Source: Naegleria lovaniensis (taxonomy: Eukaryota > Heterolobosea > Eutetramitea > Acrasida > Naegleriidae). From it: a stretch of DNA of 64,000 nucleotides. Location: the NCBI RefSeq assembly GCF_003324165.1, contig NW_025407885.1, forward strand, positions 23,792 to 87,791, given 5' to 3'. The notes beneath the pieces are model-generated. The model was given only the letters and a program-made list of their open reading frames with translations. It ran no database searches and had not been told where the DNA came from. Shown piece by piece: positions 2,842 to 48,128 of the stretch (the stretch's first letter is position 1; every line of letters begins with the position of its first letter). The position numbers were made by a program, and so were the translations under genes.

Positions 2842-4150
2842 TTAATTGAAAGTATCCCAAATACCTCGTATTGATTTATGTTTGAATGAATAGGGAACTT
2901 GAAGGCATCCTCTTAACATTTTTAAAATGTCAATTCCCTGATATTGAAATCAGCAGCAACATGTGAAAATACCATTCAACAACAAATTGAAAGGCTATTA
3001 TTAAAAAAAAGCATCAGAAACAATCGTTGCTTACCATCATGACTCCTAAAATTCCAGCAATTTCTCCCAACAATCCTTCAATCGATGAAGTATACATTTC
3101 TGCATTGTTGTGTTCTGTTAATGTGTTGTAAGTAAACGAAATGACCACAGTATTGTCATCTCGTTGTGTTAATTCCACAAGTGAAAGAATAGATTCCTTA
3201 ATAAGAAAAATAAAAACACATCCATGAATCATTTTAAATAAAAATCAACTTCTCGACTCCAAAACATACCCATCGTGTATCTGTTAAATTTGGATTTTCT
3301 ATCGATGGTTTCAATCGGGTGGTCACAATTTTAGTCAAAACAAAGTAATTATCTACATTTGCTACTGCAAAATTTGTTTCAGCAAAGACGTTGGGAATAG
3401 TACCAATTTCATGAAAAGATACTTGTAACTATTCACGAGTGGTTTGGTCATAAAACACGTTAAAAGATGATTAACACAAATGAATTCAACGGAAGAAGCA
3501 CTTACGCCAAACCTCGCGTCACGTTCCTGTGGAACCGATGGCACATCAAAAAACAATGAAATAACTCCACCGTATCCAGTTGCATTAGAAGTCATCACTT
3601 GATCTGAAAAGTTATTAAATACGTAGCATCGATAGAGTCCATTTTGTTCTATTTCCTTATATTCGTATGGTATTTCAAACTCGACCACATTTCCATCAAC
3701 CACTCGTGTCGCTGTTTTTAAGGTTAAATCACAAAAATCACATTCATAATATCCATTCCAGTTACAAATGGTGACAGCTGGCAATTCGAGTGGAACTTTC
3801 TCAACAATCGAAAGAGCTGTCGTTGGATTATTCTGAGAAGTTTGAAATTCTCCTGATGCGTTCACGACATACCAAATACAAAATACAATGGCCAATACCC
3901 ATCCGATGCTTGTGACAATTTCCGGAATGGTAATTGGAATTTTGAACTTGTTTTTTGGAATACTATTCGAGGCAATACTGTTATTCTCATGGTCACTCTT
4001 AGGAGTGATCGTATCAGCGAGAGCTGGCGATTGAGGAGTTGATTTCAACTTCAAATCGTTGGTTGTTTCTTCATTGTTATTGACAGATATCCTGCTTGAT
4101 GGGTCTTGAGATTGTATTGAACCCTCTTGAGACATTTTTTGAGATTTCAT
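2842..4150 (-). CDS. DEG/ENaC-like (amiloride-sensitive channel family) protein
   Basis: Four exons, all phase 0: 4150-3506, 3428-3270, 3196-3035, 2937-2842; every intron has GT-AG ends. The product is about 353 residues. A polar N-terminus is followed by a first membrane helix (IGWVLAIVFCIWYVV, near residues 80-98), then the post-helix signature LELPAVTICNWN, characteristic of degenerin/ENaC/ASIC subunits. Further family-like blocks are RCYVFNN and, across the first junction, RFG-LQVSFHE. The C-terminal helix GLLGEIAGILGVMMGIDILK corresponds to the pore helix. The family role is a trimeric plasma-membrane sodium channel. Oddities: about 350 residues against 500-700, a short ectodomain with few cysteines, and GID where the G-x-S filter is usually found. 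ATG 4150 is the first in frame; 4135 (MSQEGS) is an alternative. Confidence 0.7.
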
Positions 4151-9775: not shown

Positions 9776-11451
9776 TTATTTTCTTGGAGGATTTGAGTGC
9801 TTTCGTCTGATGTTTGAACCGTACTTGTTGCCGATACTTTTAGAGGAAGATGAATTAGAACCACTACTGTTGGAGCTGCTACCAGTAGATCCTTGTTTTT
9901 TACCCTTATTATTGTTGGCACCAGAATTATTCTTTCCATTTGGTCTTCGATTTGAATTTCCTTGTGGTCTTGAAGTGGATCCACTTCGATTATTGGCACC
10001 ACCTCCTGATTTTTGAGATGAAGTATTCTTCTTCGAACCATTTCTCTTGAACAACTCCATTCCAGATTTCACATCTCCAATGGCACTATTAGTGGAATGA
10101 GCTGTAGAAAGTTTGGAGATGAGAGAAGTTTTTCTGACATTGGAAACGACCTTTTTCGCATTGGTAGCTACTCTTCGAATGTTCTTCATGATGGCTGCTC
10201 GATTCTTGACAGCACTTGTGGCTTTGGTTAATGTCGTTTTCAATGATTTGAAATTTTTTGGAAGTTTTGCAACATTCAAAAGACCAATGGATTTGGCAAC
10301 ACCATGAAGACCAGTAACACCAGCAACCAAGTTAATACTTCTCTTAACAGCAAGATATGCTATTATTTCAACATATCAATTTTCAAACATGTCAGTAATC
10401 ATTTTCACATGACAAAAAAAACATGAAAACTCGCTTCCATCTTTCACAATTACTTACGCTTGGACTTGACCACAGGAGCAATCTTCTTGGCCACCTTTGC
10501 CTCAATAGGTCCCAACTTTTTTTCAGAAAAATTCGAAACTCCTGTTCCCACCGTCGATGCCGCTTTGGCCGCCCTTTCGAATCCCCACTTTTGCAACTTT
10601 TGTGAAGCCGTTCCTGAAAGCCATTTTCCAGCTTTTGAAATTGAAGTCGAATAAGTTCCAATTCCATCGACAAAGTTCATGACATTACTGGCAACTCCAA
10701 TGGCAGGTAAAATGAAGAGAGTTTTTGCTTCTTGGTTGTTGGATGAACTTTCCAAAGAGACAGAAGGAGGTTCTTGTTTTTTGACAGCATTCAAATAGGA
10801 AAGTGAAGAAACCATTAATTCAGCACTTGGATTGGCAGCTTTGCTTGTCAAGTCACGAGTGACTGCTAAAAGTTGAGTTTTGAATTCTTGTTGGGCTTGA
10901 GTGAGGCCTGAGTTTGGAATGGCGTCATGGATCTATTGAGAAGCGTTTTCAAATGTACGTTTAATATTCATTGACATTTGGCATGTAAACGATTTATATA
11001 AATAGAACACCAATAACAATACCTTTTTCACTTCATTCGCAAATTGCAACAAACTTTCAGCAATTTCTGTAGCCATCTTACTTGAAACAGCATCATGAAC
11101 TTGAGTGGCAATTTCTTTTGTTGTGGAATCCAATCGAACTTGTTCTGGTTGTTGTGAAGAAGACGAAGACGAGGTTTCTTCTTGTTGAGAGCTTGTCATT
11201 GGAGTACTTTCCTCTTGAGATTTTGATGAAGAAGAGGATGTAGAAGAGGTGGATGAAGAGCGTTTACCGGCACCGTTCACATTTACATTGACAATTAACT
11301 CGACTCCACCATCACGACGATGACGAACAGAGACATCTCGAGCCAAAGTGAAAGTCAAGAAAAGGGATAACAAGAGAAGTAGTTGAATGAGAGTGGACAC
11401 CTTGAAGAGGCGCAGAGTCCCACCTGGTGTTGTTTTCTTGGAATTTATCAT
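9776..11451 (-). CDS. Unrecognised secreted or membrane-anchored Ser/Lys-rich protein
   Basis: Three exons: 11451-11023, 10932-10458, 10359-9776; GT-AG introns with matching phases give 495 residues. A hydrophobic segment (STLIQLLLLLSLFLTFTLA, near residues 19-37) after a basic start is a signal peptide or anchor. A Ser/Thr/Gln-rich stretch follows, then amphipathic helices (KEIATQVHDAVSSKMATEIA), a Lys-rich middle (KVAKKIAPVVKSK) and a basic, Asn/Gly/Ser-rich tail ending RRKHSNPPRK. I recognise no family. The ATG at 11451 is the first in frame. Its upstream region was once shared with the racemase gene that now starts 2.3 kb away, because a retrotransposon lies between them. Confidence 0.7.
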
Positions 11452-11752
11452 GATGGCGAAACGAGTGTTGTTGACACCAACTGACAGTTGTCACTTTTTT
11501 TTTTGAGATGGGTCAGACTTTACCTTTCCTCGCGCACTGGACTATTTCCAGCAAGGTGTACCATCATCTTTCGGTTCCTTCCATTGTGGTACCCTTGTTC
11601 CTTCAAGATCAACCTATGAGAGATCTCGTCATGAATTGAAGTTCACACCAGGAGGACCAAACATCTTCTCAATAAAATATATCAAATAAAAGAGAATAGA
11701 AATAATACAATACTTTCATTGATTCATTATTAAACGAATGATCGATCTACGT
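11452..11752. promoter_or_regulatory. Former divergent promoter region
   Basis: About 300 bp between the minus-strand gene start at 11451 and the retrotransposon target site. Without the insertion this would be the shared divergent promoter of that gene and the racemase gene. No defined motif is assigned. Confidence 0.4.
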
Positions 11753-11771
11753 CGTCAACAATGAGATTTTT
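11753..11771 (+). repeat. Left target-site duplication of the non-LTR element
   Basis: The 19 bases CGTCAACAATGAGATTTTT match 13713-13731 exactly. This copy carries the ancestral ATG (11761-11763), which now runs straight into the poly-T run and is dead. Confidence 0.85.
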
Positions 11772-11854
11772 TTTTTTTTTTAAGAAGGAAAGTTTATTAC
11801 AATAGAGTTGTATTGACAACATGTTTGTAGTGAAACTCCTGCCAATTGGCAGCA

Positions 11855-13712
11855 TTAGATAATGTTTGTACACCTTGATAGTTGTTGATTCCATGTGTAG
11901 TGATTGTGAAGCCATTCATTTCTGTTATTCCATATAGTGTTGTTGCATTTTGCAATTTCTTTGATGATGATTTTGTGGATGTTTGGGTTAATTCGAATAG
12001 ACTCTGAATTGGTTAATCCAGTAGCGTATTGAAGATTAGTAAAGCATATTTGTAAAATTTTCTTCTTAGTCTCTTCACCTAGTTCGTTTTGCTTGATAAT
12101 TTTTGCTATGTTGTTTTTACATTTGTTCCTTGTAGTCTTGTGATGAGGGCAATGCAAGAAGATGTGTTCAGCTGTTTCTTTTGCACCGCAGATGCATTTG
12201 ATATCCGTATTGGTGATTTTGTTGATCCTAGAAAGGGTGCTCATGGCATTATATCGTATTCTTGTCATTTGATTGATTGTTCTGAAGCCTATTCCAATAG
12301 AGGGATGTATGTTGATGAATTTGTTTTGAANNNNNNNNNNTTTCAGAATTTTGTGCATTTTGTATTCCGATTGTTTTTGACATTAATTCTAATCCATTAT
12401 CTGTTACTATTCCATAACCAGCTCTTTTGTTGTAGAAACTTCCATCCGTTGCTATGATTTTAGCCTTTTCAAAGGCTCGTTTTGTGGCTGTTGAATGTTT
12501 GTTGTTAATGATGTTGTATCTGTTTTTAAGTTTCTGGAGGTTATTAGATACTTCATTTCTGATTTCTTCATTATGAATGAGGTTGATTTGGTGGGCATAA
12601 AAAACATGATTGCGGATTAGGCCATAGCTCACTTTGTTCCACTTGTCGTGGATAAAAGGGATGATTGGTGATTTTTCAATAGGTTCAGCACTGTTCCATA
12701 GGTTGATGTTGAATTCCTTGTTTGCTCTCGCAGTTATTTTAAAGTATGGTGGAAAAGGGTCTAGTTTCTTGAGGCTCATGTTAGTAGGCCATTGGCATGT
12801 GATCGGGTTGAGCCCGAGTGATTCATTGCACATTTTGATCATTTGTTTGGTGGTGCTTCCCCAATAGTGGTCATCTTGGAGCATGATTTTTCTAATTTTG
12901 CTAAAACAGTCTATTTTCCAGAGCATCTCAATGTCTTTGAGACTTAGTCCTCCTTGTCGTTTAGGTAGATATAACCATTTAGGGTCAAGCTTTTTCTTTG
13001 TTTTGAAAATTTCATTAATTCGGGCATGGATTACTTGTTTACATTTTTGTATTGTGGAACTATCTGAGATTGAGTAGCTATGGTATAGTATGAACGGAAT
13101 AATGTCAGTGTTAATCACATTGATTACTGATTGAATTGTTGCATTCATGTGTATGCCATTACACTTTTGTTTTGTTCTTTCAATGATCCATTTGTTGAGT
13201 TTGGAAGAATCGTTTTTGGTATTGAAGTGAGCTCCTAATGCAATAAATTCGTCTTTGGAGAAATGGAATTTGTCATCAAGAAGGATAATGGCAGGGACAT
13301 TGCTAAAAAATTCTGTTTTGTCGGGCTCTAAATCCATTCTTTTTGTGTTTAAGAGGTTTCTGAGAACGGAGTACATTTCCATTAGTTCCTTGGTTTCTTT
13401 GGATACTAAGACTATGTCGTCTATCCATCCACCGACAGCAAAGCCAAAAGGACCTGCTTGAGGGTCGATAATATATCCTTTGTAATTCTGTTCGATATGT
13501 TGTAATACTGGTTCCACAGAGATTTTAAACGCAGTTGGAGAAAGTCCGTCACCCTGTTGTAATCCTATTTCATTCGTATATCCTGATGATAGAGTATTAT
13601 TTGTGAAGATTTGGCATCGTGTGTGTGAGATGATGTCATGGATTTTTTGTCCCACTTCTTGTGGTATTCCTAGATGTTCTAGTCCTTCGATAAGGCATTG
13701 ATTGTCAATAGA
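11855..13712 (-). pseudogene. LINE polyprotein fragment: RT, RNase H, zinc knuckle
   Basis: The open part starts mid-palm (SIDNQCLIEGLEHLGIP, after the first RT motif). It continues with GLQQGDGLSPTAFKI (RT motif B), GGWIDDIVLVS (catalytic box, IDD in place of the usual ADD) and GAHFN. A thumb/connection region follows, then an RNase H start (IATDGSF, AGYGIV) cut by the gap at 12331-12340. Beyond the gap, in another frame, is a C-terminal CCHC-like knuckle (KCICGAKETAEHIFLHC) ending at 11855. Endonuclease and the 5' RT motifs are missing, so the copy cannot mobilise itself. RT plus RNase H plus knuckle recalls the I/R1/Tad-type groups; the exact clade is not assigned. Confidence 0.85.
12331..12340. 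other. Assembly gap (10 N) inside the retrotransposon
   Basis: Ten Ns interrupt the RNase H region. The reading frame changes across them and most of an RNase H domain (about 100 residues) is absent, so the true gap is probably longer than ten bases. Confidence 0.95.
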
Positions 13713-13731
13713 CGTCAACAATGAGATTTTT
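13713..13731 (+). repeat. Right target-site duplication; regenerates racemase ATG
   Basis: Exact copy of 11753-11771. The ATG at 13721-13723 opens the intact racemase frame. Confidence 0.85.
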
Positions 13732-15426
13732 CCAATTTTTTCACTTTCCAAAAAAAATGTCTCGTACGAATCAACCGAATCCAACAAATCAAACAACAAG
13801 AAATTCTCTTCCACTTTCTGGAATTACAGTATTCGATTTGTCTCGACTCTATCCAGGTCCATTATGTGCTCAATTATTGCAAGATTTAGGAGCACTAGTG
13901 ATTAAAATTGAAGATCAAAGTGGAGGAGACCCGACGAGATATTTCCCTCCATTGATGAAAGAGTAGGTGTTTGGGTTGTTGTTGTTTGGTGAGATGAGGA
14001 TTATTGATGATGATGATTGCTGAAAATAATATTTTTGGATATATTTGGAAATTTAAAATCTTTGGATCGAAAAATAATTAATGATTTTTTTTGAACAATA
14101 GAGAGGAGGATTCTGAAAAGAATAGTAGTTATCTCTTTCATTGTTTTAATAGAAACAAAAAATCAATTGCTTTGGATTTTAAACGAAAAGATATTTCACA
14201 AATGTTAAAAAAGATTTTATTTCAAAAGGAATTGTTTGGTCATGAAACACCGAGTGGTGTGAGAGTTTTAATTGATAGTGCTCGACCTGGAAAATTAGAA
14301 CAATTGCTTGGAATTAAACATGTGAGTGAGTTATGGGAGGAATTTCCAGCGCTTGTCATTTGTCGAATTTCTGCATTTGGACAAGATGTGAAAAAATATG
14401 GAGATATGCCAGCTCATGATATGAATACTGTTGGAGCAGCTGGTAAGTGGTTCGTGGAGAGTATATTCTCTGTTCGGGAGTCTGACTTTGAATGATCTTG
14501 GTGATATTTCATAATTTCCATTTTTAGGAATTTTCAACATTTCTGGAGACGTTTCTGAAAAGAATTCCGGATTGAAACCTCTTCCTATCCAACTCTCAGA
14601 TGTCATGACTGGTTACAGCTCTGCCTTACAAGTAACTTCTCTCATTCGAAAATTAGAATCCATTCTTCAAAATCCAATTTTCACACAACAAGAAAAAATC
14701 GAATTATTGAAACAAGTGAATCGACAAATTGATGTCTCCATGTTTGACAATGCCATTGCCACGATTCAAATGTCTCTCACGCTACAACTCAACGGATATG
14801 AAGAAATGGCATCCAATGGAAGACACGTCCTAGCTGGTTCCATATTAGGATATAATATTTATCCAACTAGGGAAGGATTATTATCGGTTGGATGTTTGGA
14901 ACCACATTTTTGGAAAGCATTTCTCACAGTATTATCTCGATATGAAACCATTCATTCGTGTCCACAACAAGAACAATTCAAAGATTCTGAACGACCATCC
15001 AACAACACCATTCCACAACAAATTCATTCCCAATCATCCACTCGAATTCTTCCTCTCACCAAATATACTTCTCCTCAATATTTATTTTCCAATGATTCTG
15101 AATTGAAAAGTCGTATTACAAAAATTTTGACAACAAAAACAGCATGGGAATGGGAAGAAATTTTCACACAACACTGTGCAAGTTCTGAAAAGTTGCCAGT
15201 CACGAAAATTCGAACATTGCATGAAATTGATCGAGAATTATTGCGGGAACGAAATATGATTGCGAATATGGATCAGAAGAAACAGCGTTGGATTGTAAAA
15301 AATGCATTGGATTATTCGTCATTGTTGAAAAACACAACTTTGGACCATTCTTTGCAAGGTGATCATCATCAACGAGGACCTCAATTAGGAGAACATAATG
15401 CCATGTTCCTCATCTCCAAATTGTAA
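13721..15426 (+). CDS. Alpha-methylacyl-CoA racemase, peroxisomal
   Basis: Exons 13721-13962, 14102-14442 and 14528-15426 (GTAGGT/ATAG, GTAAGT/TTTAG; phases match) give 493 residues. CoA-transferase family III enzymes of this branch invert the 2-methyl centre of branched acyl-CoAs before beta-oxidation. Motifs: GITVFDLSRLYPGPLCAQLL, GALVIKIEDQSGGDPTR, NRNKKSIALDFK, RPGKLEQLLGI and MPAHDMNTVGAAG, the last with the catalytic Asp. The end is SKL, a type 1 peroxisomal signal. The protein is about 110 residues longer than animal enzymes, with a polar insert around residues 345-380. The first ATG lies in the retrotransposon target duplication; a second in-frame ATG at 13757 (MSRTNQ) would avoid it. 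Upstream DNA is now LINE sequence. Confidence 0.9.
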
Positions 15427-23482: not shown

Positions 23483-26400
23483 ATGAAAAAGTTCATACTT
23501 TCCACATCCAACAACACGAATTTTAAGAGTGCTTTTTCTCATCATCATGAGGATGTTCGGATGGCGTCCTACTTGTTGAGACCGGAACGGTTTTATGCCC
23601 TTGCTTCAAGTGTTAAATTTCTAATGACTCAAGATGCTTTATTCGGAATGAGAAATTTCTCAACTCAAAATGCCTCTCTGTACGGAGAGGATAATTATCA
23701 AAATAATAATAACAGAAAATTCGGAAATACATCCTTCACTCCTAACAATGAAGAATCGAGGAAATTCAAGGACCATGAACGTAAAAAAGTTCCTCCTCAA
23801 CATTACGCTCAAAAATCACGAGATACTTGGCCAATGTTCAAGGACGAACAATTAGAAAATGATGACACTCGACACAATAACATGAATAGAAACAGATCCA
23901 GACATCATCATCAAGGACATCAATTCAATAGAACGCATAATAAGACACAGCAAGAACGGAACAAGTCAGAGACATCAGTGGAGAATGAAGTTGCTTCGAT
24001 GGTGTCCAAACTACTTTCAAGATCAAATTTCGAACAAAAACAGGTCGATAGGTATAAGGACTGGAAATACCCAAAATTCACTATCAAATGTCCCGATAAC
24101 TTTGACTTTACTAGCGCACCAACAAAAGAGCATGACCCCACTTTAATGTTAACCCCTTTTGACGAAGACAAGGCGAAAATGTTTAAAACATTTATGCTCA
24201 ATTATGTGAAGAAGAATTCAAGTTTTAAAGCCAAGTGTACATCGATGAACTATGAATTTTTATTTGACATATTCTGTTTGGAGATATTGGAACGTGCAAA
24301 AATACAACCTGAAATTGCAACTTTAGTGGACGAGGTAATCAATTTTCATCCAGAGAAAATTGTTATGAGAAATCAAAAAGGTGGTGACGACTCTATTTTT
24401 TCGAATGTGATTAATACAGATATGAAGCTTTATGATTTTGCAACTATTACGGAACACACGTTGGGAAACAGTAACTTTTCAACAGAGCTGTCGAAATGGT
24501 TCAACACTTTCATTCAGCAAAAGTATCCTTCAGACTTTAGATTATATATAGAGGCACTTCGTTGTTGTGACATGACCAATCCATTCAAATTCTACAAGAA
24601 GTCAATACCTTTCGGAAGAAAAGTGATTTATCATCTTGGACCAACAAACTCTGGAAAAACTCATGCTGCTCTTACGGCCTTATCGACCGCTGAAAATGGT
24701 GTTTATTGTGGGCCGTTGAGATTACTTGCCCAAGAGGTTTTCACCAAGATGAACACAAGGTATGGATGTAAATGTAACTTATTAACAGGGCAAGAAAAGA
24801 GAATAATTCCTGGAGCAAATCATGTTGCATGTACAGTCGAAATGGCAGATTTGAATGAAATTTATGATGTTGCTGTAATTGATGAGATTCAAATGATTTC
24901 TGACGCTCAAAGAGGCTCTGCTTGGACTAGAGCTCTTTTAGGCTTGAAAGCAAGGGAAATTCATGTTTGTGGTGATGGAAGCGCATTAGAGATTGTAAAG
25001 AACTTGGTTTTTGGAGATAATTCCAAATTATCAGAAGATACTAGCATTGAGGTTATTGAAGTAGACAATCCCAATCACATTCCAACAGAAGATGAAACAG
25101 CCACAGGAGAAAATCTTTATCATTATCATCAACCAGTTGCTGCTGATAAGCTTCTCTACTTTTCAAAACCAGGAATTTCAGACACATTAGAAGTGGTGCC
25201 ATATACTCGAATGAAGCCCTTAGAGATTTGCTCGGAATCGTTACAGGGAGATGTCAAGAATATCAAAGATTTTGATTGCATCGTTACCTTTTCCAGGAAT
25301 GAAATTTATGAAATTAAGAAATTAATTGAAGTGAATACCGGTATTAAGTGTTGCGTTATTTATGGAGCATTACCTCCTGAAGTAAGAACAGATCAGGCAG
25401 AACTGTTTAATGATAGTGCCGATAAGGAGCAGGATGAATTTGGAAACAGAGACTACTCGGTGTTGGTTGCCAGCGATGCTGTTGGTATGGGCCTTAACTT
25501 GAACATTAAGCGCGTTGTGTTCTACAAAATGTCTAAATTTGAAAATGCCAAACAATCCAATGCTCCTCTTGAGCCATCTTTGGTGAAGCAAATTGCAGGA
25601 AGAGCTGGACGTAGGGGTTTTCACGAACATGGACAAGTCACAACATTTTTTGACACTGATTTAGAGTACCTTCATCAATGCATGAATTCTCCAAACACAG
25701 CCATTGAACAAGCAGGTCTATTTCCTGAATGGTCTCAGATTGAAGAATTCGCCAAAGTTTACAAGAATCTTAAGGACAATGATGAAATAACTGCTATTCC
25801 TATAAGGGATGTGTTGGAAAAATTCTTCTCCTTGAGCAAAATTCATAAGGACTTTTTCTTTTGTGATGTTCAAGAAACATTAGAATTGGCAGCTGCAATT
25901 GATGAAGCCGGTCCCAATATGACACTGAAACAAAAATTCGACTTTGTGAATGCACCAGTACCTGGGTTTGATAGAGCTAAGGAGATGCACATTCGTTATG
26001 TAGAAGATTTCTCCAATCCAAAAATTGCAACTGTTCCATTACATATTGACTTGCAAAACATTTTAAGGATTTTGGATAAAATTCGAGAAAAGTCCAAAAC
26101 AGAGTCTAAAATTCAAACAGGCTTTAATTCAGTGGGAGTATATCTTCAAGAAGCTTTAAAGAATATTGAATTTTATCACAGAATGATTGACTTGTATATG
26201 TGGCTAGCAAACAAATATCCCTTAAGATTTGACAAAGATGCTGCAGAACAAGCACGAGATGTGTTGATGAGTGAATTGACCGAGTCTCTTTTTAATCAAA
26301 CAGAGGAGAATAAGAAATTGAAATCCATAGGCATGCTCAAAGAAAATGCTCCAAGAGCATTTGAATATGTCTCATTTAAGAGAAACAATCGAAATCCTAA

Positions 26401-43770: not shown

Positions 43771-46487
43771 GTAACAATTATAATACAAGAACACAACCAT
43801 CCTATACCACACCATCAAAGGATGAGATTGGAAAAACATCATCACTCAATACTCCCATACATTCCCATGTTGGTGTAACTCCCTTGAGGACAACTCCACC
43901 CAATACAATCGTATCGGCAACACCAACAAGTAGCAGCGCCATAAGAGGCACATCAGCAGCTCTTAGAGATCCTCAGGAACCACTCTACTACAGTAGTCAT
44001 GATCATGTAAGTTGAATATTGTGAGTCGTTGAAGTCTAACAAGCCATCACCAAAAATCTAATGGTGGTATTGTCGCATCATGTTACATTATCACTTCGAA
44101 ACACAAATTTGACAAACGATCCCACTTTGTTTGCTCTTCTATTGATCTTTCCATCATCAATCGCAACAAACGCTTGTCAACAAACACCTTCAACCACGAC
44201 AAAAAACAACACACAAACCGCTCAAATTCGACCACATTCTCATCCTGTAAACCGTACACAGAACAATATGCATTCTTCATACGCTCAACAGCCACAACAG
44301 ACGTTCTACGCGTATAGCCCAAGCACCAATCTCAATGTTAATTCTCTTCCCTACTCCAATACCACCTCCAACTTCTCAAATCCTGCAACACCCAGCAACA
44401 GCGCTGTCCTTCCATCATCAAACATGATTTTCCCACAATCTACCAGTTCCTTCTCTCTTCCATCTGTAAATTACAATTCAACATCGAATAATCCAAGCAA
44501 TGTAGCATCAATGAGTAATAGCCGTGCAAGAGTTCAAGGAACAACAACACCCACCTCCAATTTTCAACAGCAGTCTGCACTCTATTCCAATCCTCACCCT
44601 TCAACGTTGTCATCAACAGCCGGCACAGCAACAATGGGATACAATACTCACCGCAGTCCCGGAACGCTTGCAAGCAATATTGTAACAGATTCACAACTTG
44701 CTTACATTCGTCAACCACAATATATCCAACAGATTCCAGAAGGTTCGGGCTCATACATAGACCCGCAACTAATGCCAATAAGAGGAGAGCAACAACCAGT
44801 CCAATTATTGACATCATCGAAGGCCCAACGGGCCGGAGTACAATACAGTTATGAACAATACTTGCCAACGACCAATACTGGTTCGAGCAATCAATTATTA
44901 CATCCTTCATCAAGTCAGCACTACCAACCACGTCCAACAAGTAGCTTGAGCAATCAAATACCAACATCATCTGGTAGTCCTCAGGGTGGAAACGTCATGC
45001 AAACAAACTATAATACATATGGTACTACCACTTCCAGTTATTATCAACAGCAATATGGAAATATGACAAGCTATCCAACCACTCATAACACTCCAAAAAC
45101 AGTGACACTTTCTAGAACAAATAGCACGCAATTGGTACCAGGATCTTCAATGACTTGTCCGATCGTTGTCACAGATGATCATGGCCAAACATTACAACGA
45201 CAAAATCCGATGTCCCAAAATTATATTCAAAATATGAATTCACGAAGTTATTCGCCAGCAATTTATAACGGAGGCCATCAACAACAACAACATTATACCT
45301 CGTATGCTCAACCTCAAGCAAATCAATATATTGTTACCACTTCAACACCTCCTCAAATGCCACCCCCACAAAATCATATTGCCACAGTTTCCCAAGCTCA
45401 ACCATCGACATCAAACAGCAATTATCCTGTGGGATTGTTAGTTGGATCAAAATATAGGCTCATGAATAAGATTGGAAATGGAGCTTTTGGCGAAGTTTTT
45501 CTAGCTCAAAACACAGATCAATCACAAGATTTTTATGCAGTCAAGCTAGAGACAATACCAACGCCTCAAAACGGGCAAAACAATGGCGGAAAACAACAAT
45601 TAATTTTTGAAGCGAAGGTTCTGTCATATCTTTTCAATGCACCACCAAACTCTACTTCTTCATCTAATGGTAGTACGAATAACAACACTCAGCAAAACCA
45701 ACCCGCTGTGGGAATACCTCGCGTGATCTGGTACGGAACTGAGAGTTCGTTTAATATTATGGTCATGGAACTTCTTGGACAAAGCTTGGAGAGCTTATTC
45801 AAGAAATGTAATCGCAAGTTTTCCTTAAAAACGGTTTTAATGCTGGCAGATCAAATGATTCAAAGAATTGAATTCACTCACAGAAGAAACTTTGTACATC
45901 GAGACATCAAGCCAGACAACTTTTTGATGGGTAGAAAGGGCTCGAATATGCTGCAATTACTGAATGGGACATCCTATCAGCCGACATCTACAAATGGTAA
46001 TCTAAACACTGAGAATACTGTATATCTTATTGACTTTGGTTTATCGAAAATGTACTACTCTGAGAAGGGACATATTCCACTCAGGAAAGACAAACACCTG
46101 ACAGGAACTGCTCGTTATGCAAGCTTGAACAATCACAAGGGCTATGAACAATCAAGAAGAGACGATCTAGAGTCCCTTGGTTATGTCTTGCTTTACTTTT
46201 TGAAAGGTGCTTTACCATGGCAGGGACTTACAGGAAATACCAAAGAAGATCACTACAACAATATCTATCACAAGAAGAAAAATATCAAAGTTGTTTCTCT
46301 ATGCAAAGGGTTCCCAGTTGAGTTTGCAACCTATCTCAACTATGCTCGTGGCTTGAAGTTTTATCAAGAGCCTGACTATCTCTACCTGAGGAATTTATTC
46401 TTAAATTTGTTCATTAGAGAAAAGTTCTCATTAGATTATGAATGGGACTGGATTGTGCAAGATCGAAAGAGTGAACGCCAAAAATAA
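43767..46487 (+). CDS. Casein kinase I family protein kinase
   Basis: Exons 43767-44006 and 44262-46487 (GTAAGT...TACACAG, phase 0) give 821 residues. A 470-residue Gln/Asn/Ser/Thr-rich N-terminal region precedes the kinase domain (about 473-800). Domain marks: KIGNGAFGEVFLAQN (Gly loop), FYAVKLE (Lys), NFVHRDIKPDNFLMG (catalytic loop), LIDFGLSKMY (DFG), and the CK1 hallmark LTGTARYASLNNHKGYEQSR with RRDDLESLGYVLLYFLKG and LPWQGL. CK1 enzymes are Ser/Thr kinases acting on primed or acidic sites in many pathways. Here the low-complexity part is N-terminal, whereas most CK1 proteins carry a C-terminal tail. A short upstream ORF overlaps the start codon. The next gene begins 75 bp downstream. 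Confidence 0.92.
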
Positions 46488-46562
46488 ACAATAAGAACTT
46501 GCAAGAGATGAAAAATCGTAGAGTTTGGTTTAAAAATTCAAGTAAGGTAATTCCTTAAAAAA

Positions 46563-48128
46563 ATGTCTCGACAAGAAACAAGTGTTGTTAAAGAAGACGA
46601 GCTTCAAACAACCACGACTTGCGATACTCAAGATCTTGAGGAACCCATTCCAATGAAACACAAGCCAACTATTTTAGAGGAGTTTTTAACATCTTCCTAT
46701 CATTCCTATGTAGAGGTAATAAAACCTTTTGAAATGAATCATCGTTCGGATTTTGAAAAGCTGTCTGCGTTGCTCGCACGCAAATCCACTGCCTCCAAAA
46801 CACAACATCAATCCCTTGTAGAACGACTTGAAACCTTACTCGAAAAAGTATCAGTCAGCAGTCTTTCCGGAGTCGACGATCACAAGAGTCTCTCCACTTC
46901 TCTCAACCATTCCTTCTTCGAGTTTAGAAATATCAGAGACATGTTCAACAATGACATTGACTCAAACATGAGCATCGTGAGTGAGGAAGATGTTGCCATT
47001 CTTGCCTCTCATTGTCTCTACATGCTTGAATACTATAATACCATATCGAGTGAATTTAGAGACCAAAAAAAACTCTTACTTGTGTTGAGAGTTATTGTCA
47101 ATTATTCAGAAAATAATCCAACAACGAATACACTGAGAAGAGAGCAACTCAAACGAAGAGCAAAGTTTATGAATCATATATTGTCCGAGTCTGAGAGATT
47201 TCAACAATTACTTTGTAAATTCATGACATTCTCTAATGATCCTAATGATAAGGTTCAATATCTGTGCGCTAAATGTTTGAGTAATTTCATGAAAAATCAA
47301 TCAAAAGTGTTGAATCAGAATGAGGGTGTGACTGGTCAGCAGCAACAGAAAAAAGTGTTTGCGTTGAATGTAGATACTCTTCGAGTGATTGGCATGTGTT
47401 TGGAAACACTGTGTGACAAGTTGCTTGTGAAAAATGCTGAGACCTTTGTTCATGTCCATTTCTATCAATTGTTGATTAACATCTTGTATGATCATTATAT
47501 TGAACTTCATGGTGTAGAGATGAGTATCCGTCATGAAGAACCTAGTCGTCAAGAGGTCGTAGATTTGTATGTTCATACTCAGGTGAAAAAATTGCTCAAT
47601 TGTACCAATCAAAATTCAACATTTGTGAAATGTCTATCTCTGATTCAGAAACATGTCGAGAAAATGATTACTTCCAATGAGAGTGATAGTTGTGCATTGA
47701 ATTCTAACGATATTTCCAAATTGGTTAGGGTAAGTTCAATCGTCGACATGATTCATCATGATTTCACACAAATATTGGTGGATGTTAAGTCGTTACTACA
47801 TGAGGAGGCAAACGTTATTCAATTAGCTTCTGAATTGTTGTTGAGATTCAGCGATACACTCACTGAAGAAAATAAGGAGACCATTGTGACATGCCTCTTT
47901 TCACATAATTTGGTATGCTTCAACAGAAATCAAACTCAGAGTGCATACAAGGCTAGTGTGAATGCACTAATAGAATGGTCCACTCGTGATACGTACTTGG
48001 AGGAAAAACTGTCGAGCTTTGTAAATGATCCAGTAGTGGCAGAGTCCTATGATCGTGCCATAGTTTCTATTCGAAACGATAGAGAACAATACAAGTTACA
48101 CTGTGATCGTGTCAAACGTCTTGTGTAG
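46563..48128 (+). CDS. Unrecognised helical-repeat (ARM-like) protein
   Basis: 521 residues, one exon, with an A-rich start context (AAAAAAATG). The sequence is mostly alpha-helical with armadillo-like texture (DPNDKVQYLCAKCLSNFMKN, ANVIQLASELLLRFSDTL), similar to cytosolic solenoid proteins, but no family signature is clear. There is no signal or membrane segment. It is packed tightly between the casein kinase gene and a convergent kinase gene whose stop is only 7 bp away. A role as an adaptor is a guess from the fold. Confidence 0.7.
   Translation: MSRQETSVVKEDELQTTTTCDTQDLEEPIPMKHKPTILEEFLTSSYHSYVEVIKPFEMNHRSDFEKLSALLARKSTASKTQHQSLVERLETLLEKVSVSSLSGVDDHKSLSTSLNHSFFEFRNIRDMFNNDIDSNMSIVSEEDVAILASHCLYMLEYYNTISSEFRDQKKLLLVLRVIVNYSENNPTTNTLRREQLKRRAKFMNHILSESERFQQLLCKFMTFSNDPNDKVQYLCAKCLSNFMKNQSKVLNQNEGVTGQQQQKKVFALNVDTLRVIGMCLETLCDKLLVKNAETFVHVHFYQLLINILYDHYIELHGVEMSIRHEEPSRQEVVDLYVHTQVKKLLNCTNQNSTFVKCLSLIQKHVEKMITSNESDSCALNSNDISKLVRVSSIVDMIHHDFTQILVDVKSLLHEEANVIQLASELLLRFSDTLTEENKETIVTCLFSHNLVCFNRNQTQSAYKASVNALIEWSTRDTYLEEKLSSFVNDPVVAESYDRAIVSIRNDREQYKLHCDRVKRLV

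Follow-up and report, generated by a model that had tools for sequence, protein, structure and literature searches.

A 5'-truncated LINE in the leader of a CoA-transferase III/racemase family gene on one of two most likely allelic contigs of Naegleria lovaniensis, and start-codon junctions of related poly-A LINEs

The window, i.e., the whole stretch of 64,000 nt of N. lovaniensis DNA that was analysed (C64:23792-87791, GC 0.366), was compared with a genome of 30.69 Mb on 97 contigs. The S-adenosylhomocysteine hydrolase of this genome closely matches chain 5v96, that of N. fowleri, with near identity along 440 residues. At the locus described here two divergently oriented genes flank an intergenic region which is interrupted by a LINE (Table 1). 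The distance between both genes amounts to 2305 bp with the insert and to 345 bp without it, and to 288 bp on contig C75, which carries a LINE-less version of the locus. A divergent neighbour with a now split intergenic region, as read from the sequence at the outset, is thus supported. For the ORF of this neighbour at 10933-11451 no Pfam match above cut-off was obtained.

Table 1. Features of the insertion locus, given in positions of the window
Feature	Position	Strand	Remarks
Divergent neighbour gene	9776-11451	-	Several exons, extent as in the sequence-only reading; ATG 11449-11451; ORFs 10933-11451, 10450-10815, 9776-10189
Intergenic region left of insertion, native	11452-11752	.	From ~11672 strongly diverged or missing on the LINE-less haplotype
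Left target-site duplication	11753-11771	+	ATG at 11761 opens a 14-codon frame only
Poly-A tail of LINE	11767-11781		Plus strand reads 15 T; 5 T common to the duplication
5'-truncated LINE	11772-13712	-	1941 bp including the 10-N gap; poly-A adjoins the left repeat
LINE C-terminal frame, zf-RVT-like zinc finger	11855-12358	-	E 7.4e-4 and 9.3e-4, below cut-off
Assembly gap, 10 N	12331-12340	.	Inside the LINE; some of the RNase H region is probably hidden here
Reverse transcriptase domain, C-terminal part	13248-13703	-	RVT_1 positions 84-197, E 1.6e-13
Right target-site duplication	13713-13731	+	Holds the in-frame ATG at 13721
CoA-transferase III/racemase family gene, exon 1	13757-13962	+	From the start ATG common to both haplotypes
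Exon 2	14102-14442	+	
Exon 3	14528-15426	+	Ends -SKL (PTS1-like)

The gene to the right of the LINE encodes a product of 481 aa on C64 and of 482 aa on C75, free of internal stops. Its three-exon frame is intact on both haplotypes, in agreement with the claim that the insertion left the coding region unharmed. Five synonymous and six non-synonymous codon differences were counted between the haplotypes, and two of the non-synonymous ones fall at the N-terminus, which is ambiguous. The C-terminal PTS1 (-SKL) is present on both, and a peroxisomal location is predicted. A match to PF02515 spans residues 20-473 (E 2.5e-54), and on this domain match the protein can safely be placed in the class III CoA-transferase/racemase family. 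The more specific designation as a racemase, made in the sequence-only reading, is plausible, but the protein is closest to CoA-transferases by sequence, and the call holds at the family level only. Among solved chains, CoA-transferases and a CaiB/BaiF protein are the nearest by sequence and racemases match more weakly; over the whole protein, 4ed9 and formyl-CoA transferase outrank the racemases. All NCBIfam matches are CoA-transferases as well, far under their cut-offs, and none reaches cut-off. With the middle 193 residues alone just two racemase chains pass (E ~0.001), and a weak alignment to racemase chain 1x74 (E 0.001) contains counterparts of the His and Asp of the racemase MCR, which we take to be the catalytic pair. 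The word racemase is absent from the main text of a peroxisome study of Naegleria and other amoebae (PMC7549135).

The ends of the LINE are marked by a 19-bp direct repeat, CGTCAACAATGAGATTTTT, in perfect match. A direct-repeat scan of 11000-14500 gave no repeat above 29 nt, i.e., no long terminal repeats, and the duplication is the pair at the ends. Without its T-run, the repeat has a 14-bp core for which ~0.0006 occurrences are expected in the window (both strands) and two were found, on the plus strand; this core is far too specific for a chance pair. The reverse transcriptase domain scores 51.3 bits (Pfam cut-off 29.6), and the LINE frame is open up to the assembly gap; in the stretch before the gap no RNase H match was detected. 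A second copy of this LINE, located on C40, aligns in two long pieces with 97.4% and 96.5% identity and runs further 5' into upstream reverse transcriptase sequence (RVT_1 E 8e-6), which shows that the window copy is 5'-truncated. The gap corresponds to 316 bp in the C40 copy, where RNase_H is weakly matched (E 2.5e-4, below cut-off), thus the gap probably hides sequence of similar length. The C40 copy lacks ~245 bp present in the window LINE, has extra sequence and is interrupted by stops. Since one copy of the duplication lies on each side of the gap, the scaffold join is supported. Taken together, the exact repeat, the reverse transcriptase domain, the tail and the longer C40 copy confirm the original description of a perfect 19-bp duplication bracketing a poly-A-tailed, 5'-truncated LINE.

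No endonuclease domain was seen in the C40 copy, and the window copy lacks the 5' half. Such a domain was found in the relatives on C47 and C54. Identity to the window LINE in the reverse transcriptase region is 33-34% for C47, C65, and C22 and 25% for C54. In the 1423-aa frame of the C47 relative the endonuclease, reverse transcriptase, and RNase H matches pass their cut-offs, and zf-RVT is matched weakly.

Both flanks of the insertion recur on C75, 2 bp apart and with no LINE between them. With a length of 51,638 bp, C75 is end-to-end colinear within C64:8040-59710 apart from insertions on either side, at ~99% identity (255 mismatches over 47,467 aligned bases, with scattered indels). At least four further insertions with inverted ends differ between the two contigs. 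The window carries at 487-2669 an insertion with inverted-repeat-like ends, a 4-bp TCGG duplication, and a DDE_Tnp_4 frame (E 4.2e-17), which is absent from C75. Present on C75 only are a ~3.8-kb element with inverted ends, a TTGA duplication, and a 775-aa DUF7869 frame (C75:1367-5150, L029) as well as two short inverted-end elements (C75:7990-8210 and 26181-26335). No near-identical second copy of window positions 45001-47000 occurs in the assembly, so the doubling is confined to the span of C75. The simplest and most likely reading, judged by sequence comparison, is that C64 and C75 represent two alleles.

The LINE is absent from the C75 haplotype. In total C75 also lacks ~60 bp, including the duplicated target: the LINE, both copies of the duplication, and ~43 bp of the left flank are missing as one block, and on the right the match restarts at 13733, not more than 2 bp from the end of the duplication. 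C75 is therefore rejected as a clean empty site. An empty site elsewhere had been named as confirmation of recency; a LINE-less version does exist, but due to the lack of the target itself it is no proof of a recent insertion. The difference may stem from insertion on C64 or from loss on C75. Of 475 blocks of 100 bp, which differ by 0.54% on average, the one on the left side of the LINE (11610-11709) is the most diverged (15%) and the one on the right side (13710-13809) the third most diverged (9.1%). This may reflect a local cluster of mutations or, in part, misalignment beside the indel. The second most diverged block (14%) is located away from the LINE at window positions 3410-3509 (C64:27201). 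When an alternative origin of the diverged leader was sought for either haplotype, each query matched only itself at the sensitivity of that search.

Concerning the start of the gene, the ATG at 13757 is the only one present on C75 as well, and an A-tract precedes it in both versions. On C64 at least four A directly before the ATG were observed for 7 of 39 long-ORF starts, compared to 1.3% of 3,977 ATGs. The ATG at 13721, situated in the right duplication, shares the reading frame of the gene (81-aa ORF) and has an A at -3, but no corresponding ATG exists on C75. The duplicated ATG, regarded in the sequence-only reading as the racemase start, was therefore rejected as the shared start. On the LINE haplotype it could be usable and would add 12 residues to the predicted protein. 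The PF02515 match begins downstream of both ATGs and hence does not discriminate between them. Given 13757 as the shared start, the LINE sits in the leader, in antisense, with its edge 44 bp upstream of this ATG and the end of the right duplication 25 bp before it.

Within the LINE 46 plus-strand ATGs occur. None of the splice donors GTAAGT, GTAGGT, and GTGAGT is present across 11452-13712, and a single GTATGT was found at 12307; excision of the LINE as an intron of the leader was rejected on the lack of the three former motifs. An acceptor-like CAATAG is located immediately before the right duplication. Due to the 46 ATGs and the lack of a strong splice donor, a read-through leader should be poorly translated. 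Since the promoter region is split by the LINE, this allele is probably poorly expressed, as far as sequence can tell. The earlier statement that expression must use LINE sequence or a cryptic start, or be lost, applies at most to the LINE haplotype, because the intergenic region of C75 is uninterrupted.

Our main reading, to which we assign a probability of roughly 0.85, is that the LINE was copied into the leader on one haplotype by target-primed reverse transcription, leaving the coding sequence intact and the promoter split. The plus strand would have been nicked after GAGATTTTT, and the T-run at the nick would have paired with the poly-A tail of the LINE RNA. Copying would then have halted short of the 5' end of the element, resulting in an antisense, truncated LINE in the leader. 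The LINE-less haplotype C75 could supply the enzyme. In contrast, the sequence-only reading placed the insertion into the start-codon region itself, with duplication of the native racemase ATG. The frame and the A at -3 of ATG 13721 speak for such a split, yet with this ATG missing on C75 and 13757 being the sole shared start, behind an A-tract in both versions, we consider it improbable.

A less remote, if still unlikely, scenario is an insertion that predates both haplotypes, followed by a single deletion on C75 that removed the LINE together with ~43 bp of left flank. The block-wise loss and the resumption of the match at 13733 agree with it; a deletion of 60 bp on C75 in combination with an insertion on C64 explains the data equally, and the frame open up to the gap is weak evidence for youth. 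It is also conceivable that C75 is a segmental duplication instead of an allele, in which case the LINE copy could be homozygous. The comparison is one by sequence alone, the doubling is local to the span of C75, and aneuploidy and raised ploidy are reported for some Naegleria strains in the accessible portion of PMC9928731. Containment and colinearity of C75 in C64 at ~99%, scattered indels, and presence/absence differences of elements argue against it. Furthermore, in the same portion a diploid Naegleria genome is an assumption consistent with the data of its authors, and the N. lovaniensis assembly was, according to the available part of PMC6125883, made with a diploid-aware assembler. A segmental duplication thus appears to be a poor prospect, and copying into the leader of one haplotype remains our preferred reading.

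The 3' junctions of poly-A LINEs were gathered by similarity to LINE tails with the flanks disregarded, and 10 remained. Six of them belong to one family (C47, C65, C22, C14, C3:149148, and C54:63972) and four to the family of the window copy (window, C40, C35, and C3:1075813). At 8 out of 10 junctions, including 3 of the 4 from the family of the window copy, TG comes directly after the A-run, so the junction reads ATG. For C14, C3:1075813, C22, C35, C47, and C65 (6 out of 10) this ATG opens an ORF of 174-466 aa, and for C40 and C3:149148 ORFs of 12 and 6 aa, respectively. Exceptions are C54:63972 and the window copy, which are not at an ATG; the window LINE is followed by TCTCATTG, is antisense to the gene, and lacks an A-tract with ATG at its junction. 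The claim of an insertion at the start codon is hence not supported for the window copy and fits most of the relatives counted.

The ORF at the C47 junction matches the NEDD8-E1 catalytic subunit UBA3 over residues 21-439 (E 1.4e-138), so that the ATG in question is very probably the start of a genuine housekeeping gene. The C65 ORF has an F-box-like match just under cut-off, and a Pfam scan of the C22, C14, and C35 ORFs gave no match. C65:75777-82045 (L036) and C47:30001-36275 (L035) have the same LINE 5' flank and 5' duplication and different 3' flanks. Due to the shared 5' flank and duplication, the C65 copy is either an ectopic recombinant or an assembly chimera, with a 3' flank of its own. 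Among the seven copies with a resolved duplication, the left copy of the duplication represents the pre-insertion A-tract plus ATG in four cases (C22, C47, C14, and C35) and reads AAAAAACATG in case of C3:149148; for C54:63972 and the window it is not an ATG. Ahead of the tail, only about 27 bp of LINE are left at C54:63972 (L062) and about 63 bp at C3:149148 (L044), with duplications and poly-A kept. At C54:71677-75402 (L038) the A-tract ATG of a mitofilin-like gene (PF09731, E 5.3e-35) follows ~60 bp after the end of an intact LINE frame of 1242 aa; as the 3' end of this LINE is undefined, the case is outside the junction count.

As a control, TG follows 25 of 173 A-runs of at least 6 on C64, and 13 of 80 outside ORFs of at least 200 aa (background ~16%). 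Compared to the latter, 8 out of 10 junctions gives a Fisher P of 9e-5, and compared to 3 of 20 A-runs of at least 8 a P of 0.001; for the 5 out of 7 resolved duplications at an ATG the binomial P is 0.002. These values are to be read as coming from a small sample and a partly post hoc idea, which was formed after C47, C65, and C22 and then C40, C35, and C3:1075813. Of the junctions added later (C14, C3:149148, and C54:63972), 2 out of 3 fit the start-codon pattern. A third reverse transcriptase family, classed as LINE from the reverse transcriptase alone, is without poly-A and ends in CCCTGTA plus a T-run. None of its 10 copies (C24, C52, C7, C80, C12, C20, C29, C31, C37, and C72) lies directly at an ATG, and the nearest ATG that opens at least 60 aa is 24 bp on, for the C31 copy. 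The 3' ends of this family run into T-runs, a contrasting target choice within one genome.

Several copies were left out of the 10 junctions: two fragments on C20 that lack a 3' end; C4:662764, C27:323051, C40:92888, and C43:132197, which matched a tail without a following poly-A run; the C9:124982 copy, for which there is no A-tract ATG downstream; and the LINEs at C4:476519 and C54:73246 with undefined 3' ends (no duplication of at least 10 bp for C4, best 9 bp for C54), both of which lie just upstream of an A-tract ATG. Many of the 41 reverse transcriptase matches are outside the junction count, as are L049-L051, L060, and L061. Frames of 660-690 aa were left out as well, since we take them to be DIRS-like and not LINEs.

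In this genome, poly-A LINEs thus seem to prefer A-tracts, in particular those located at start codons, with the window copy as an exception. We lean slightly towards the reading that two poly-A LINE families insert preferentially, and in sense, into the A-tract directly before start codons; each such insertion would duplicate the ATG, and an intact gene would regain its A-ATG context from the poly-A tail of the element. The bias may be caused by a preference of the endonuclease, by open chromatin, or by survival. It is a somewhat weaker, tentative proposal that A-tract insertions occur anywhere and that those at start codons are retained through survival or open chromatin. The two junctions away from an ATG (the window copy and C54:63972) would agree with it, and so would the restoration of the A-ATG context, from which selection against the insertion may be expected to be mild. 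Non-coding A-tracts, however, should be tolerated at least equally, yet TG follows just 13 of 80 of them.

On its own, the window insertion, present on one haplotype and absent from the other, is a LINE insertion of ordinary kind and handy for tests of allele-specific expression; more weight attaches to the pattern across the family. If such targeting is true, start-codon A-tracts would serve LINEs as a landing niche within the gene-dense genome of a protist, whose A-rich start context would double as a transposon target. Promoters would be displaced and proteins left intact, and it is tempting to regard this as a tidy route to promoter replacement. Among the literature matches listed, no title or abstract opening concerned start-codon-targeting LINEs or LINE target sites in Naegleria.

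With respect to known systems, the gene product resembles alpha-methylacyl-CoA racemase and class III CoA-transferases in its whole-length PF02515 match, and may resemble the racemase also in the His/Asp pair, which has counterparts in the weak alignment; unlike racemases, its best sequence matches are CoA-transferases. The window LINE shares the reverse transcriptase region with APE-type LINEs with RNase H (the C47, C65, C22, and C54 relatives) and differs from them by the missing 5' half, so that no endonuclease of its own is seen. Zorro3, a non-LTR element of Candida albicans, targets poly(A) stretches, and its new insertions are in intergenic DNA (PMC7175516, available part); the insertion of poly-A-tailed LINEs into genomic A-tracts described here is similar. 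In contrast to the 8 out of 10 junctions that abut an ATG here, no start-codon preference is described for Zorro3 in that part of the text. As in case of Dictyostelium TRE5-A (PMC5391098, available part), LINEs of a gene-dense amoeba genome are located at fixed sites beside genes; the TRE5-A site lies ~47 bp upstream of tRNA genes, whereas here it is the A-tract at the start codon of protein genes and, in case of the window LINE, a T-run in the leader.
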